From: a virus
Strand: one strand, 5' to 3'
IMG/VR virus record: IMGVR_UViG_3300041999_000015
Location: 1 to 20,075 of that record
Length of the DNA: 20,075 nucleotides
Positions 15,746-19,875 of the stretch are shown here, one piece after another. The notes beneath the pieces are model-generated. The model did no database searches. It was not told where the DNA came from and was given only the letters and a program-made list of their open reading frames with translations. Position numbers and translations under genes: made by a program. Position 1 is the stretch's first letter, and each line of letters opens with the position of its first letter.

Positions 15746-16102
15746 ATGACAATCATCAACTCGACCCTCGCCGACCTGCGGAAGCGAGCCGGTCTCTCTC
15801 AGAGTGAGGTTGCCGAGAAACTCGGCGTGTCCCGCAACCAGGTCAGCCGAGTCGAGGCGATGTACCCGGAGGTGATGTTCACCAGGCTGCGCGCGTACAT
15901 GGACGCGATCGGCGTGGACATCCGCTTCGAAGGCGAAGGGATCATCGACGACCTGTCGGGCGAAGTCGTCGCAGACACCACGCGGATCTACGCGGAGAAG
16001 CGTCGGTCCGACCCCAGCCGGGGAGCGCAGGCATTGCAGCGCAAGCTGAGGGAAGCACAATCCGGAGCGGCGGGAACTGACCCGGCCTCGCTAGGTAGTT
16101 GA
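15746..16102 (+). CDS. XRE-family helix-turn-helix regulator, reverse to late genes
   Basis: A 118-residue DNA-binding protein on the + strand, against the structural genes. The HTH is at residues 11-37 (LRKRAGLSQSEVAEKLGVSRNQVSRVE), followed by a helix reading FTRLRAYMDAIGVDIRFEGEG, typical of short repressors and HigA-type antitoxins. The last 40 residues are basic and likely flexible. Ribosome site GGAAAGAG lies 8-14 bases upstream. It has its own promoter, an operator palindrome overlapping the -10 box, and a strong hairpin 57 bases after its stop, so it is an autonomous one-gene unit (a moron-like insertion) between portal and terminase. It lacks the DUF5753 domain that normally accompanies XRE partners of DUF397. 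No toxin gene is adjacent. Regulation of lysogeny, of host genes, or of superinfecting phage are possible roles. Confidence 0.88.
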   Translation: MTIINSTLADLRKRAGLSQSEVAEKLGVSRNQVSRVEAMYPEVMFTRLRAYMDAIGVDIRFEGEGIIDDLSGEVVADTTRIYAEKRRSDPSRGAQALQRKLREAQSGAAGTDPASLGS

Positions 16103-16430: not shown

Positions 16431-17939
16431 TCACAAGAAACGCATCCGAGGCGTGACGCCGTTGTAGTAAGCCAGCAGCAGCGCGTCGGCATTGTCCGGG
16501 GACCGGCCGCACCGCTTGATGATGTCGTCCTTCGGCTCGACCTGGATCTTGCCCTTGGAGTCGAGGAACCAGCGGGGCCACAGGAGCTGAGCGCAGGCGT
16601 TGTCCGGGTTCTCCATCTGCGAAAGATCCCAGGTGCCGGACGCCGAGAACTCGCGGCCGATCGTCCACCACATCTCCGCACGAAGGTTCACGAACTTCTT
16701 CTTGTCGTGCGGGTTCGACGAGACGTTCACGCCGACGATCTGTGCGTTGTGCTCGCCTCTACGAGCCGCGTTGCGAAGTTCACCGATGACACCGAATCCG
16801 ACACCGATGGAGTCGATCTTCACCTTTGTGGCACCGGACTGCCGCAGCGCCCGCAGAACCAGCGGAGCGATCTTCTCCGGCCTGTCGGTACGGATACGCC
16901 ACTCACGTCCGGCGAGGATGCCCCGCCGTTCACGGATGACCGTCTCGTCCGAGCCGCCACCGACGTCCACCCCGAGTTCAACAGGGGAGAGGTCGGCCGG
17001 TGAGTACCGCGTCTCCGGGTCCACCCGGCAAGCCGCCAGGTCGGAACCGCGCACCACCGTATCGACGGCGTCCACGGAGAACTCGCCGAGCACCTTGGAC
17101 CGGTACAGGGCGTTGTCCACGCCCCAGTCCTGCTTCTTCTCCTCGACCCACACCTTCGAGACGAGGGAAGCGGCCACGGCCTCACTCACCGGCTCGCCGG
17201 TGAAGTTGGGGGAGTCGAACGCCGAGATGCCCAGCGTCGCCCAGCCGGAACCGGGCTGGCACACCTTGAAGAAGTGCGTCTGCGAATTGTCGGGGTTACC
17301 GATAGCGAGAATGCGGCAGTCCGGGCCGGTGGCCAGGGCGTCAGCCGCAACCCACAGCTGTTCCGGAACTCCGCACGCCTCGTCGATGACGACCAGAACA
17401 TAACGGGCGTGAATACCCTGGAATGCACTCTCATCCTGGTCGGCGGGCTTACGGCCGTACGCGACGATTTCCTCGTCGATCAGCCATTCCGTCTGGTTCA
17501 CCCGGCCGGGCAGACCAACAGATTTGTGGAACCGCCGCACATAGCGCCAGAGAATCGCACGGACCTGCGCAGTAGTCGGTGCGGTGGTCACTACGAATGC
17601 CTCGCCTGGGGGGTGCGAGTCAAGCCACCAGGAAATAGCCAGTGCCGCCACGTGGCTCTTTCCGATTCCGTGACAGCTATGCACGGCGGTTCGTCGGTGG
17701 TCGCGAACGGACATCAAGATGTCCCGCTGCTTCGACCAGACGGACTGACCCAGGCGCTCGCGCACCCACAGGTCCGGGTCCGTCATGTACTTGGACTGGC
17801 GCTGGATCGACAGCTTGCGGTCGACCGCAGCCTTGAGCTGATCGCGCACCGTCTTCAGGCGCTTGGTGTCACCCGTTCGGACGAGCTTCTCGACCAGCGC
17901 CTGCATGGCCTCGACATCGAGGTCGTCGGAGGTCAACAC
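16431..17939 (-). CDS. terL: Terminase large subunit
   Basis: A 502-residue packaging motor and nuclease. I choose the GTG at 17939 because GGGAGGT lies six bases upstream; longer in-frame TTG/ATG starts lack a site. The ATPase half has a Walker A-like SCHGIGKS (about 88-95), Walker B LVVIDEA (about 182-188) and the coupling motif ILAIGNPDN (about 210-218). The nuclease half has LGVDVGGGSDE (Asp325), KIDSIGVGFGV (Asp376) and DNADALLLAYYN (Asp482/485), the expected three acidic clusters of the RNase H-like domain. It cuts concatemeric DNA and pumps it through the portal. A hairpin in its leader (GGUGAC with GUCACC) partly covers the ribosome site. Confidence 0.94.
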   Translation of the reverse strand: MLTSDDLDVEAMQALVEKLVRTGDTKRLKTVRDQLKAAVDRKLSIQRQSKYMTDPDLWVRERLGQSVWSKQRDILMSVRDHRRTAVHSCHGIGKSHVAALAISWWLDSHPPGEAFVVTTAPTTAQVRAILWRYVRRFHKSVGLPGRVNQTEWLIDEEIVAYGRKPADQDESAFQGIHARYVLVVIDEACGVPEQLWVAADALATGPDCRILAIGNPDNSQTHFFKVCQPGSGWATLGISAFDSPNFTGEPVSEAVAASLVSKVWVEEKKQDWGVDNALYRSKVLGEFSVDAVDTVVRGSDLAACRVDPETRYSPADLSPVELGVDVGGGSDETVIRERRGILAGREWRIRTDRPEKIAPLVLRALRQSGATKVKIDSIGVGFGVIGELRNAARRGEHNAQIVGVNVSSNPHDKKKFVNLRAEMWWTIGREFSASGTWDLSQMENPDNACAQLLWPRWFLDSKGKIQVEPKDDIIKRCGRSPDNADALLLAYYNGVTPRMRFL

Positions 17940-17941
17940 TG

Positions 17942-17968
17942 GGTGACCTCCCATCAACCTCTGTCACC
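17942..17968. promoter_or_regulatory. Inverted repeat between terL and the DUF397 gene
   Basis: GGTGAC and GTCACC, 15 bases apart, flank the ribosome site of terL and lie just ahead of the DUF397 ribosome site. It may be a shared operator for the two divergent genes or an RNA hairpin reducing terL translation. Six-base arms can occur by chance. Confidence 0.3.
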
Positions 17969-17982
17969 GAGGGGAAACTGTC

Positions 17983-18165
17983 ATGAACGCTGAGTGGGGC
18001 TGGAAGATTTCTTCGTACAGCACCGGCGCGAACAACTGCATCGAGACCGCGAGCGCGGGCTGCGTGGTCGGCGTGCGCGATACCAAGGACCGCGACCGGG
18101 GGATCGTCGCTGTCGGCGCTCCCGCGTGGGCGCGTTTCGTCGCATCACTGAAGAGCGACTGCTGA
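17983..18165 (+). CDS. DUF397 domain protein, reverse to late genes
   Basis: A 60-residue protein that is almost exactly one DUF397 domain: WKISSYSTGANNCIETA, then VVGVRDTKDRDRGIVAVGAPAWARFVASLK. The diagnostic elements W-K-SSYS, N-C-x-E, VRD-T/S-KD and W-x-x-F-V are all present. Ribosome site GAGGGG is about nine bases upstream of the ATG. DUF397 proteins are actinobacterial and are usually encoded next to an XRE-DUF5753 regulator, where the pair has been linked to development, antibiotic production and toxin-antitoxin-like behaviour. No DUF5753 regulator is present in the window. The gene points away from terL with 43 bases between the starts, and converges on a small membrane gene with one base between stops. 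Its origin is probably a host chromosome. Confidence 0.88.
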   Translation: MNAEWGWKISSYSTGANNCIETASAGCVVGVRDTKDRDRGIVAVGAPAWARFVASLKSDC

Positions 18166-18473: not shown

Positions 18474-18794
18474 TCATACGGTCTGCATCGGGATCAGCCA
18501 GTGCGACGGCGGGTCGATCTCCAGCGGCGTCGAGCACTCCCGTACGTACGCCTCGTCCGGGTTGGACGGGTCGATCATGATCATTCCGTTGTCGGAGCGA
18601 CGGTAGACCTCGTAGCGGATCTCCCACGTACCGGACTCGTCCGTGATCCAGACCTCGCAGTCGACCGGGACGTCCGAGGGGCGGATGCCGTGCATCAGCA
18701 GCCAGTGCTTGATCTCCTCGCGGCGGACATCCGTGAACGTCGCCCACAGCGGTCCGTCGGAGATGAGCCAGCGAGACTCAGTCGTCGTCTCCAT
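18474..18794 (-). CDS. Conserved hypothetical actinophage protein
   Basis: A 106-residue acidic protein, METTTESRWLISDGPLWATF..., starting at 18794 behind GGAG with seven bases of spacing. It contains WEIRYEVYRRSD, MIMIDPSNPDEAYVRE and C-terminal PPSHWLIPM, a mostly beta pattern. I know similar sequences as unassigned proteins of Streptomyces phages but no function. The start overlaps the end of the alpha-hairpin gene upstream by 17 bases, so translation is probably coupled. It lies in the run between small and large terminase. Confidence 0.66.
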   Translation of the reverse strand: METTTESRWLISDGPLWATFTDVRREEIKHWLLMHGIRPSDVPVDCEVWITDESGTWEIRYEVYRRSDNGMIMIDPSNPDEAYVRECSTPLEIDPPSHWLIPMQTV

Positions 18795-19023
18795 CGGGAA
18801 GCTCCAGTGCGCAACGCACTGCGCAGTCCTTCGCTTCCAGGAGCTTGCGCAGGCAGACGGTGAGTTCGGGGGAGTCCGGCAGCCACTGCAACATCAGATC
18901 CGCCGCGATGGCGAAGTGACGAGACACCTTCCGCAGCTTGGGCGGCAGGTGATCGTAGGAGAAGTAGCTGTGCAGCCGCTGGATCTCAGGGTGACGGTCG
19001 GCAAGTGACGGCATCCGGTTCAT
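18778..19023 (-). CDS. Alpha-hairpin protein resembling Acb2/Tad1 cyclic-nucleotide sponge family
   Basis: An 81-residue protein from ATG 19023 (weak AGGT site upstream; a GTG 14 codons earlier would overlap the preceding gene and is less likely). The pattern FSYDHLPPKL (about 21-30), a helix with ADLMLQWLPDSPELTV and a second helix LRKLLEAKDCAVRCAL (58-73) is a two-helix hairpin with a Pro-Asp-Ser-Pro-Glu turn. This is like actinophage relatives of the Acb2/Tad1 hairpin domain, whose members sequester the cyclic nucleotides of CBASS and Thoeris immunity. Matching is by general pattern, not by confirmed residues, and it could instead be an unrelated hairpin family. The gene lies among small membrane proteins between the two terminase genes. 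Confidence 0.42.
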   Translation of the reverse strand: MNRMPSLADRHPEIQRLHSYFSYDHLPPKLRKVSRHFAIAADLMLQWLPDSPELTVCLRKLLEAKDCAVRCALELPDGDDD

Positions 19024-19046: not shown

Positions 19047-19253
19047 TCAGGGGCGCGCACGCCACTCGTCGTAGAACTCGGCAACGTCAGCTAGCCAGGC
19101 CTTGGCGACCGCGTACTCGACGAAGCACAGCCACATCAGCGCCGCAGCGCACGCATACGGTGCGCTGCTCAAGGCGTAGACCGTGAACGTCATCAGAGCC
19201 AAGCCCGCCAGGAGAAGCAGCGTGCCGACGGTGAACTGAAGGCGCGGACTCAT
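19047..19253 (-). CDS. Small two-helix membrane protein
   Basis: A 68-residue protein, MSPRLQFTVGTLLLLAGLAL..., whose ATG overlaps the stop of the small terminase gene as ATGA. Two hydrophobic segments at about 6-28 and 30-52 are followed by an amphipathic end (WLADVAEFYDEWRARP). Translation coupling to the terminase gene is likely since no separate ribosome site is needed. It is one of three tiny membrane proteins within 3.1 kb. Family not recognised. Confidence 0.75.
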   Translation of the reverse strand: MSPRLQFTVGTLLLLAGLALMTFTVYALSSAPYACAAALMWLCFVEYAVAKAWLADVAEFYDEWRARP

Positions 19254-19846
19254 TCGGACTCCCCGGGATGAAGAGCCGGTGCGAGTACCTCGCGGGTTAC
19301 GTCATCGGTGGCGTTGATCGCCGCAATCAGCTGGGCGATCTCACCGCCGATCTGGTCGGCCTCGACGGACAAGCGCACCTGCGCGTCCAGTCCGAGGTAC
19401 TTCGCCCGGCGTTCCTTGATCTTCAGGATACGGTCCAGCGCCTCCAGCACGAACCGCTCGTCCTGGACGATCTGTCCCTCGACCATGATGACGCGTCCCT
19501 GCTGCACGAGCACGTGCTCGCGGCGCAGAGACTGCCACAGGTGCCGTTCCATCTCGTCCAGGGACTGGAGTTCCTGAAGCCGGGTCTCATCCGTGGTGAA
19601 GCGGTAGACGGCGGTCAGCCCGCGCTGCACGGCCTTGGCCGCACGCCTCGGGTCGAACTCGCCGGTGACGGAGTCGCGCAGCTCCAGCATCTCGGCGATC
19701 TCTTCGAGATCGTGGCCGATCGCCTTCAGCCGGGCGGCCTCACGGTCGCGCTTCCAGGAGTGGTACTTCGGGTGGCCAGCCGGTGCCGACTCCGGGAAGA
19801 AGTCTTCGTCGTCCTCGAACGGGGACGGCAGATTGTCGTCGCTCAT
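19250..19846 (-). CDS. Terminase small subunit candidate
   Basis: A 198-residue protein beginning MSDDNLPSPFEDDEDFF. I choose the ATG at 19846, three bases after AGGGA; a TTG seven codons earlier lacks a site. An acidic N-terminus is followed by a helix-turn-helix-like part (ARLKAIGHDLEEIAEMLEL, then RRAAKAVQRGLTAVYR), a long helical centre and LDRILKIKERRAKYLGLD near 150-170, a pattern common in small terminase-like proteins. They bind DNA at the packaging start and recruit the large subunit. It is the first gene of the minus-strand run and precedes the large subunit by about 1.3 kb, an unusual distance. Confidence 0.62.
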   Translation of the reverse strand: MSDDNLPSPFEDDEDFFPESAPAGHPKYHSWKRDREAARLKAIGHDLEEIAEMLELRDSVTGEFDPRRAAKAVQRGLTAVYRFTTDETRLQELQSLDEMERHLWQSLRREHVLVQQGRVIMVEGQIVQDERFVLEALDRILKIKERRAKYLGLDAQVRLSVEADQIGGEIAQLIAAINATDDVTREVLAPALHPGESE

Positions 19847-19875
19847 GAATCCCTGCCGAGGTTTCAATGCACTGG

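Follow-up and report, generated by a model that had tools for sequence, protein, structure and literature searches.

The 81-residue protein encoded near the right end of the window (the whole analysed stretch of 20,075 nucleotides, from IMG/VR virus record IMGVR_UViG_3300041999_000015) belongs to a broad phage family that is very probably a distant sister of the Acb2/Tad1 hairpin. It is a protein of a sister family and not a demonstrated member of PF24729, the Pfam model Acb2_Tad1_hairpin. As the leading reading, to which we assign a probability of roughly 0.5, the protein may sequester a nucleotide-type immune signal, by analogy with its distant relatives.

The hairpin gene and its locus

In the list of open reading frames of the window, the gene runs from an ATG at 19023..18778 on the minus strand and encodes 81 amino acids (MNRMPSLADRHPEIQRLHSYFSYDHLPPKLRKVSRHFAIAADLMLQWLPDSPELTVCLRKLLEAKDCAVRCALELPDGDDD); an alternative GTG start at 19065 would extend the product to 95 amino acids. 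This is a real gene, with differences from its closest relative in the related contig L001 (71% identity) distributed over the three codon positions as 15/13/32, and with a G+C content by codon position of 0.69/0.40/0.80.

Upstream of the hairpin gene lie a hydrophobic, membrane-like ORF of 68 amino acids (19047..19253, minus strand), which has no significant family match, and a putative small terminase gene (TerS-like; 19250..19867, minus strand). The latter matches PHROG 645, a family named 'RNase E' (E 7.7e-15), and its product is probably the small terminase, as judged from position, synteny and sequence character. Mycobacterium phage Nigel and Gordonia phage Clawz also encode proteins annotated as 'RNase E' close to the hairpin gene; the Nigel protein is only marginally similar to the putative small terminase of the window. 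Downstream lies the terminase large subunit gene (TerL; 16431..17957, minus strand; PHROG 2, 6e-38). An ORF of 106 amino acids (18474..18794, minus strand) shares 17 bases with the 3′ end of the hairpin gene and is likely to be co-translated with it; it has relatives in L001 and in three further related contigs (L094-L096), and is without a family match in scans with Pfam- and PHROG-type profiles. Gene order and strand are the same in L001, L094, L095 and L096, and a fifth contig, L097, retains the hairpin and TerL genes. The initial annotation had placed the gene between the terminase subunits, and this holds for the window and its related contigs; elsewhere, capsid, tail, lysis and early genes adjoin.

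Two further genes are found near TerL on the plus strand. A DUF397 protein (PF04149; E 1.2e-15, above the cut-off) is encoded at 17983-18165, beside TerL and opposite to the late genes, and has no match in the five related contigs. A gene of the XRE helix-turn-helix type (15746-16102; HTH_3, 4e-12) lies between portal and TerL and is kept in all five. DUF397 proteins of Streptomyces pair with XRE regulators (PMC6262351), and the two genes of the window could be such an XRE-DUF397 pair, split by TerL. The phage-borne copy of DUF397 points to an actinobacterial host.

Predicted fold

The AlphaFold2 monomer, modelled from 132 sequences, reaches a pLDDT of 92.6 and a pTM of 0.80, with helices predicted at residues 12-19, 28-47 and 52-72 and a linker of the form F21-x-Y23-x-H25-L-P between the first two. 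A true PF24729 protein modelled likewise has helices at 6-15, 24-47 and 52-74, and published Acb2 consists of one short N-terminal helix and two long antiparallel helices (PMC12043709; PMC10419184 is cited alongside this comparison). In the model, the window protein thus has the protomer layout of PF24729, a short N-terminal helix followed by a two-helix hairpin, its helix 1 being about 4-5 residues shorter. That the gene encodes an 81-residue two-helix hairpin, as initially proposed, is backed by the real ORF and by this confident model.

Foldseek searches against viral models returned the protein's own family first and then A0A411AWH0, an 'Acb2/Tad1 hairpin', at rank 7 with a probability of 1.00; further entries of this name follow in the viral fold library at ranks 13, 19, 20, 21, 27 and 31. 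Against the PDB, Foldseek and VIA-align 2 list no Acb2 or Tad1 structure; these searches have little power, since for a true PF24729 protein run as a control 7uq2 comes up only at rank 15, with an E-value of 5.3. The window model is also matched by the hairpin of an 'Anti-TRAP domain-containing' protein of Ochrobactrum phage vB_OspP_OH (BFVD A0A6G6XYP8), a possible fusion.

Distribution and conservation of the family

The window protein falls into PHROG 5120 (3.5e-26) and PHROG 1761 (2.6e-22), both without an assigned function. A single tblastn search found relatives in 357 of 50,697 phage records, ranging from Actinomycetota phages to Vibrio, Acinetobacter, Erwinia and cyanobacterial phages. 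An alignment query added relatives encoded in 195 stretches of bacterial genome contigs and at least 582 in IMG/VR contigs. The organism titles of the relatives cover Actinomycetota, Pseudomonadota, Bacteroidota, Planctomycetota, Verrucomicrobiota, Chloroflexota, Gemmatimonadota and a number of candidate groups; part of the titles belong to metagenome bins, in which mis-binning is possible. Among 296 Actinomycetota genomes, PHROG 5120 has four true matches, one of them in the seed genome, and PF24729 has none; among 299 Pseudomonadota genomes, PHROG 1761 is matched only in the seed genome and PF24729 in seven. Weak chromosomal matches to PHROG 5120 were rejected as relatives, as they are HEAT repeats, and were then used as a control.

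Doubtful annotations are found in both families: members in Acinetobacter phages are labelled as 'occludin homology domain' proteins on very weak similarity, and a PF24729 protein of a Paenibacillus phage is labelled 'phosphomannomutase' (examples of records with such labels are MZ675741.1 and MH460826.1). Some relatives carry additional domains. In Erwinia phage Y3_026 (L006, 2788-3210) the hairpin is fused to an N-terminal domain with the P-loop GPVGCGKS, which is the PHROG 1761 architecture in Erwinia jumbo phages. A Mesorhizobium phage or prophage relative (L043 / L162, 3836-4225) has, ahead of the hairpin, a short N-terminal domain of beta-like character (GKFYTTRTGGVVGPV...), which is reminiscent of the Tad1 architecture but found no backing for it in family or PDB searches.

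The scan of the bacterial genome and IMG/VR contig collections used RKLLEAKD or LRKLLEAK as exact peptides, and the invariance of residues 58-66 in the alignment of 132 relatives (A3) is therefore partly by construction. Conservation was hence read from an unbiased set of 17 relatives in phage records, obtained by plain tblastn. In this set the core of helix 2 is conserved (residues 58-70, L58-R59-K60-L61-L62-E63-A64-K65-D66 ... V69-R70; 18814..18852, minus strand). L26, L30, S34, E53, R59, K60, L61, E63, K65 and V69 are invariant in all 17 sequences, and F21, H25, A64, D66 and R70 are kept in 16. A cysteine replaces R59 in one relative from a genome (L367).

Probable kinship with the Acb2/Tad1 hairpin

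In direct searches the family escapes the PF24729 model. The window protein has no PF24729 match at E<=1, a PF24729 search of the window record found none, and none of the 132 relatives passes the gathering score of 27 bits, in contrast to Acb2 of phage T4 (Vs.4), which matches the model at 7e-20. Sequence searches of the window protein against Pfam, NCBIfam, PADLOC and the PDB also gave no useful direct match.

Kinship becomes apparent through the relatives. Over 24,736 Pfam models, the best E-value obtained by any of the 132 relatives is to PF24729 (0.0045; five members, all below the cut-off). PHROG 1454, a target that was not preselected, is matched by 29 of the 132 at E<=0.001 (best 2.5e-5), and every other foreign PHROG by at most one. 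All seven PHROG-1454-type proteins of a further alignment (A2) match PF24729, the best at 1.9e-24, and one Pseudomonadota locus matches PF24729 (5e-19) and PHROG 1454 (2e-24) at the same place. PHROG 1454 is thus a PF24729 family, matched both by T4 Acb2 and by members of the window family, and bridges the latter to Acb2. The profile search suggested by the initial annotation gave a divided answer, with PF24729 failing on the window protein and PHROG 1454 reached by its relatives.

Profile-profile alignment (hhalign) of the window family with PF24729-type proteins gave a P-value of 3.5e-7, a probability of 93% and a score of 39; the highest score among 200 column shuffles was 21, and the reversed profile scored 9. 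The independently built alignments A3 and A5 agree, at a P of 2.5e-6, and place the F-x-Y motif at matching positions. HEAT repeats, chosen as a control by their similarity to the PHROG 5120 profile and without a match to PF24729 profiles, reach a similar pairwise P of 1.4e-6, and the profile P alone is therefore not decisive. The T4/PaMx-type subset of Acb2 taken alone aligns weakly with the window family (P 0.13; 4 of 200 shuffles equally good) and aligns with the PHROG 1454 type at 2.6e-12. Among PDB entries compared by profile, 9ptq, 'Acb2 homolog 43' (six chains), is third, with helices in register at an E-value of only 1.0. The A2 profile matches Tad1 at 0.004.

The similarities to PF24729, PHROG 1454 and 9ptq comprise size, a short N-terminal helix with two antiparallel helices, carriage by phages and variable neighbourhoods. 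They extend to an F-x-[YF] motif before helix 1 (F-x-Y in the window family), and to a P-x-[GS]-x-E loop and a K-L-x-E-A start of helix 2, common to both families at equal, gap-free spacing. The window protein differs from PF24729 in that the conserved Thr of helix 2 is replaced by Arg59 and the end W-A-N-A-A-I-A-R by K-D-C-x-V-R-A-A-L. With T4 Acb2 (Vs.4, 7uq2) and the PaMx33 type (p26, 8h2j, 8ixz) it shares the fold layout, the aromatic residue at the position of Tyr8 and R70 at the position of Arg79; there is no direct sequence match, the positions of Thr68 and Phe82 differ, and the insertion between the helices of T4 Acb2 is missing. Tad1 (7uav, 8kbb) is similar in its C-terminal two-helix hairpin, kin via PF24729, but has an N-terminal beta domain that the window protein lacks. 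Acb4 (PF13876), which is alpha/beta and dsRBD-like (PMC11722364), and Tad2 are also small phage nucleotide sponges, but their folds are unrelated to that of the window protein.

The putative ligand pocket

For T4 Acb2, disruption of cyclic dinucleotide binding by the Y8A mutation and stacking of Phe82 on the ligand have been described (PMC12657218), as has lowered binding by the T68M mutant (PMC12657230). The position of Tyr8 corresponds to Y23, which is Tyr in 15, Phe in one and Pro in one of the 17 unbiased relatives and Tyr, Phe, Trp or His in nearly all members of the wider family. Thr68, which the alignment confirms as the conserved Thr of helix 2, corresponds to Arg59, present in all 17 and near-invariant in the family. 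Phe82 corresponds to residue 73, a Leu or Val in the window family, and Arg79 to the conserved R70. Judged from these alignments, the pocket appears partly kept and partly rebuilt, and the conserved charges of helix 2 (R59, K60, E63, K65, mostly D66, R70) suggest a set of ligands or contacts other than that of T4 Acb2. Since its pocket residues differ, we have not filed the window protein as an Acb2 or a Tad1. The initially claimed likeness to these proteins stands as a probable distant kinship, in library scans, profile-profile comparison and fold; it does not extend to the PF24729 model itself or to the pocket as a whole, where an aromatic is kept at the Tyr8 position and Thr68 and Phe82 are replaced.

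Gene neighbourhoods across phages

The commonest neighbour of the window-family genes is the terminase large subunit (PHROG 9 and PHROG 2 each match seven neighbours), and portal is also among the neighbours. Relatives lie downstream of the major capsid gene in Gordonia DumpsterDude and Rhodococcus Perlina, beside minor tail, lysin or holin genes in Nocardia NS-I, Gordonia Gustav and Brevibacterium AGM16, and away from structural genes, near primase, replication or early genes, in Rhodococcus Reynauld, Mycobacterium Phayonce and Nigel, and Gordonia SCentae. True PF24729 genes drift alike: in Arthrobacter Jasmine the neighbour is terminase, and in Gordonia ChisanaKitsune it is portal. Published genome notes already label PF24729-type proteins of actinophages as cyclic oligonucleotide sequestering proteins (PMC11953737, PMC13348362), a label that they do not give to the window family.

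Alternative explanations

These neighbourhoods bear on whether the hairpin could be a structural or packaging accessory, such as a terminase, head or assembly factor. Its locus between terminase genes, the frequency of TerL as a neighbour, the shared late-gene strand and the synteny in the four related contigs would all fit, but genes of the same family adjoin capsid, lysis or replication genes in other phages, and true PF24729 genes show the same drift. An independently acquired accessory gene therefore fits better than a part of the packaging machinery, and a packaging role is unlikely. Least likely, in our estimate, is a convergence of small helical hairpins, with the family being unrelated to Acb2/Tad1 and having another function. 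The failure of the Pfam model on the window protein and the comparable pairwise P of HEAT repeats, with their weak matches in genomes, are in line with convergence; yet PF24729 and PHROG 1454 stand out in unbiased scans of whole libraries, the loop and helix-2 spacing and the F-x-Y motif agree, Acb2/Tad1 hairpins recur in viral fold matches below the protein's own family, and HEAT repeats break the helix where the window model has one continuous helix (52-72).

A more serious alternative, though still a doubtful one, accepts the kinship but has the hairpin act on other proteins, as an inhibitor or adaptor; through the charged face of its helix 2 it would bind a host protein (e.g. a defence enzyme or a part of RNA polymerase) and not a nucleotide. 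A fixed protein epitope would fit the near-invariance of R59, K60, E63, K65 and usually D66 and R70 over many phyla, and of the three ligand residues named for T4 Acb2 only one is retained; the fusions to a P-loop-bearing domain in Erwinia phage Y3_026 and to a beta-like domain in the Mesorhizobium relative point the same way. Against this, those PF24729 relatives whose function is known are nucleotide binders, an aromatic residue is retained at the position of Tyr8, and a single host epitope constant from Actinomycetota to Bacteroidota would be a strong demand.

A candidate sponge for immune signals

Sequestration of a nucleotide-type immune signal remains the leading reading. By analogy with Acb2/Tad1, we infer that several hairpins would come together as a small oligomer, that the pockets between its subunits would bind and hold, without degrading it, a nucleotide-type immune signal of the host (from CBASS, Thoeris or a similar system), and that the suicide effector would thereby stay off. 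The strong conservation of helix 2 over phyla is unusual for a protein engaged in an arms race and counts against this role.

Tentatively, and somewhat short of even odds, the family may be a lineage of its own among the phage sponges for immune signals, and perhaps the most widespread one. Its pocket (R59, K60, E63, K65, D66, R70) would then be rebuilt for a ligand unlike those of Acb2 and Tad1, and the lineage would so far have gone without annotation in the phages of some ten bacterial phyla. Because the pocket differs, the signal held could be one not so far known to be sequestered. The current Pfam model PF24729 misses a sister lineage, and the tie to Acb2/Tad1 offers a first testable function for PHROG 5120 and PHROG 1761, large families whose members are annotated as 'hypothetical'. 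Anti-defence activity is a further prediction of this tie, for hundreds of phages already sequenced.
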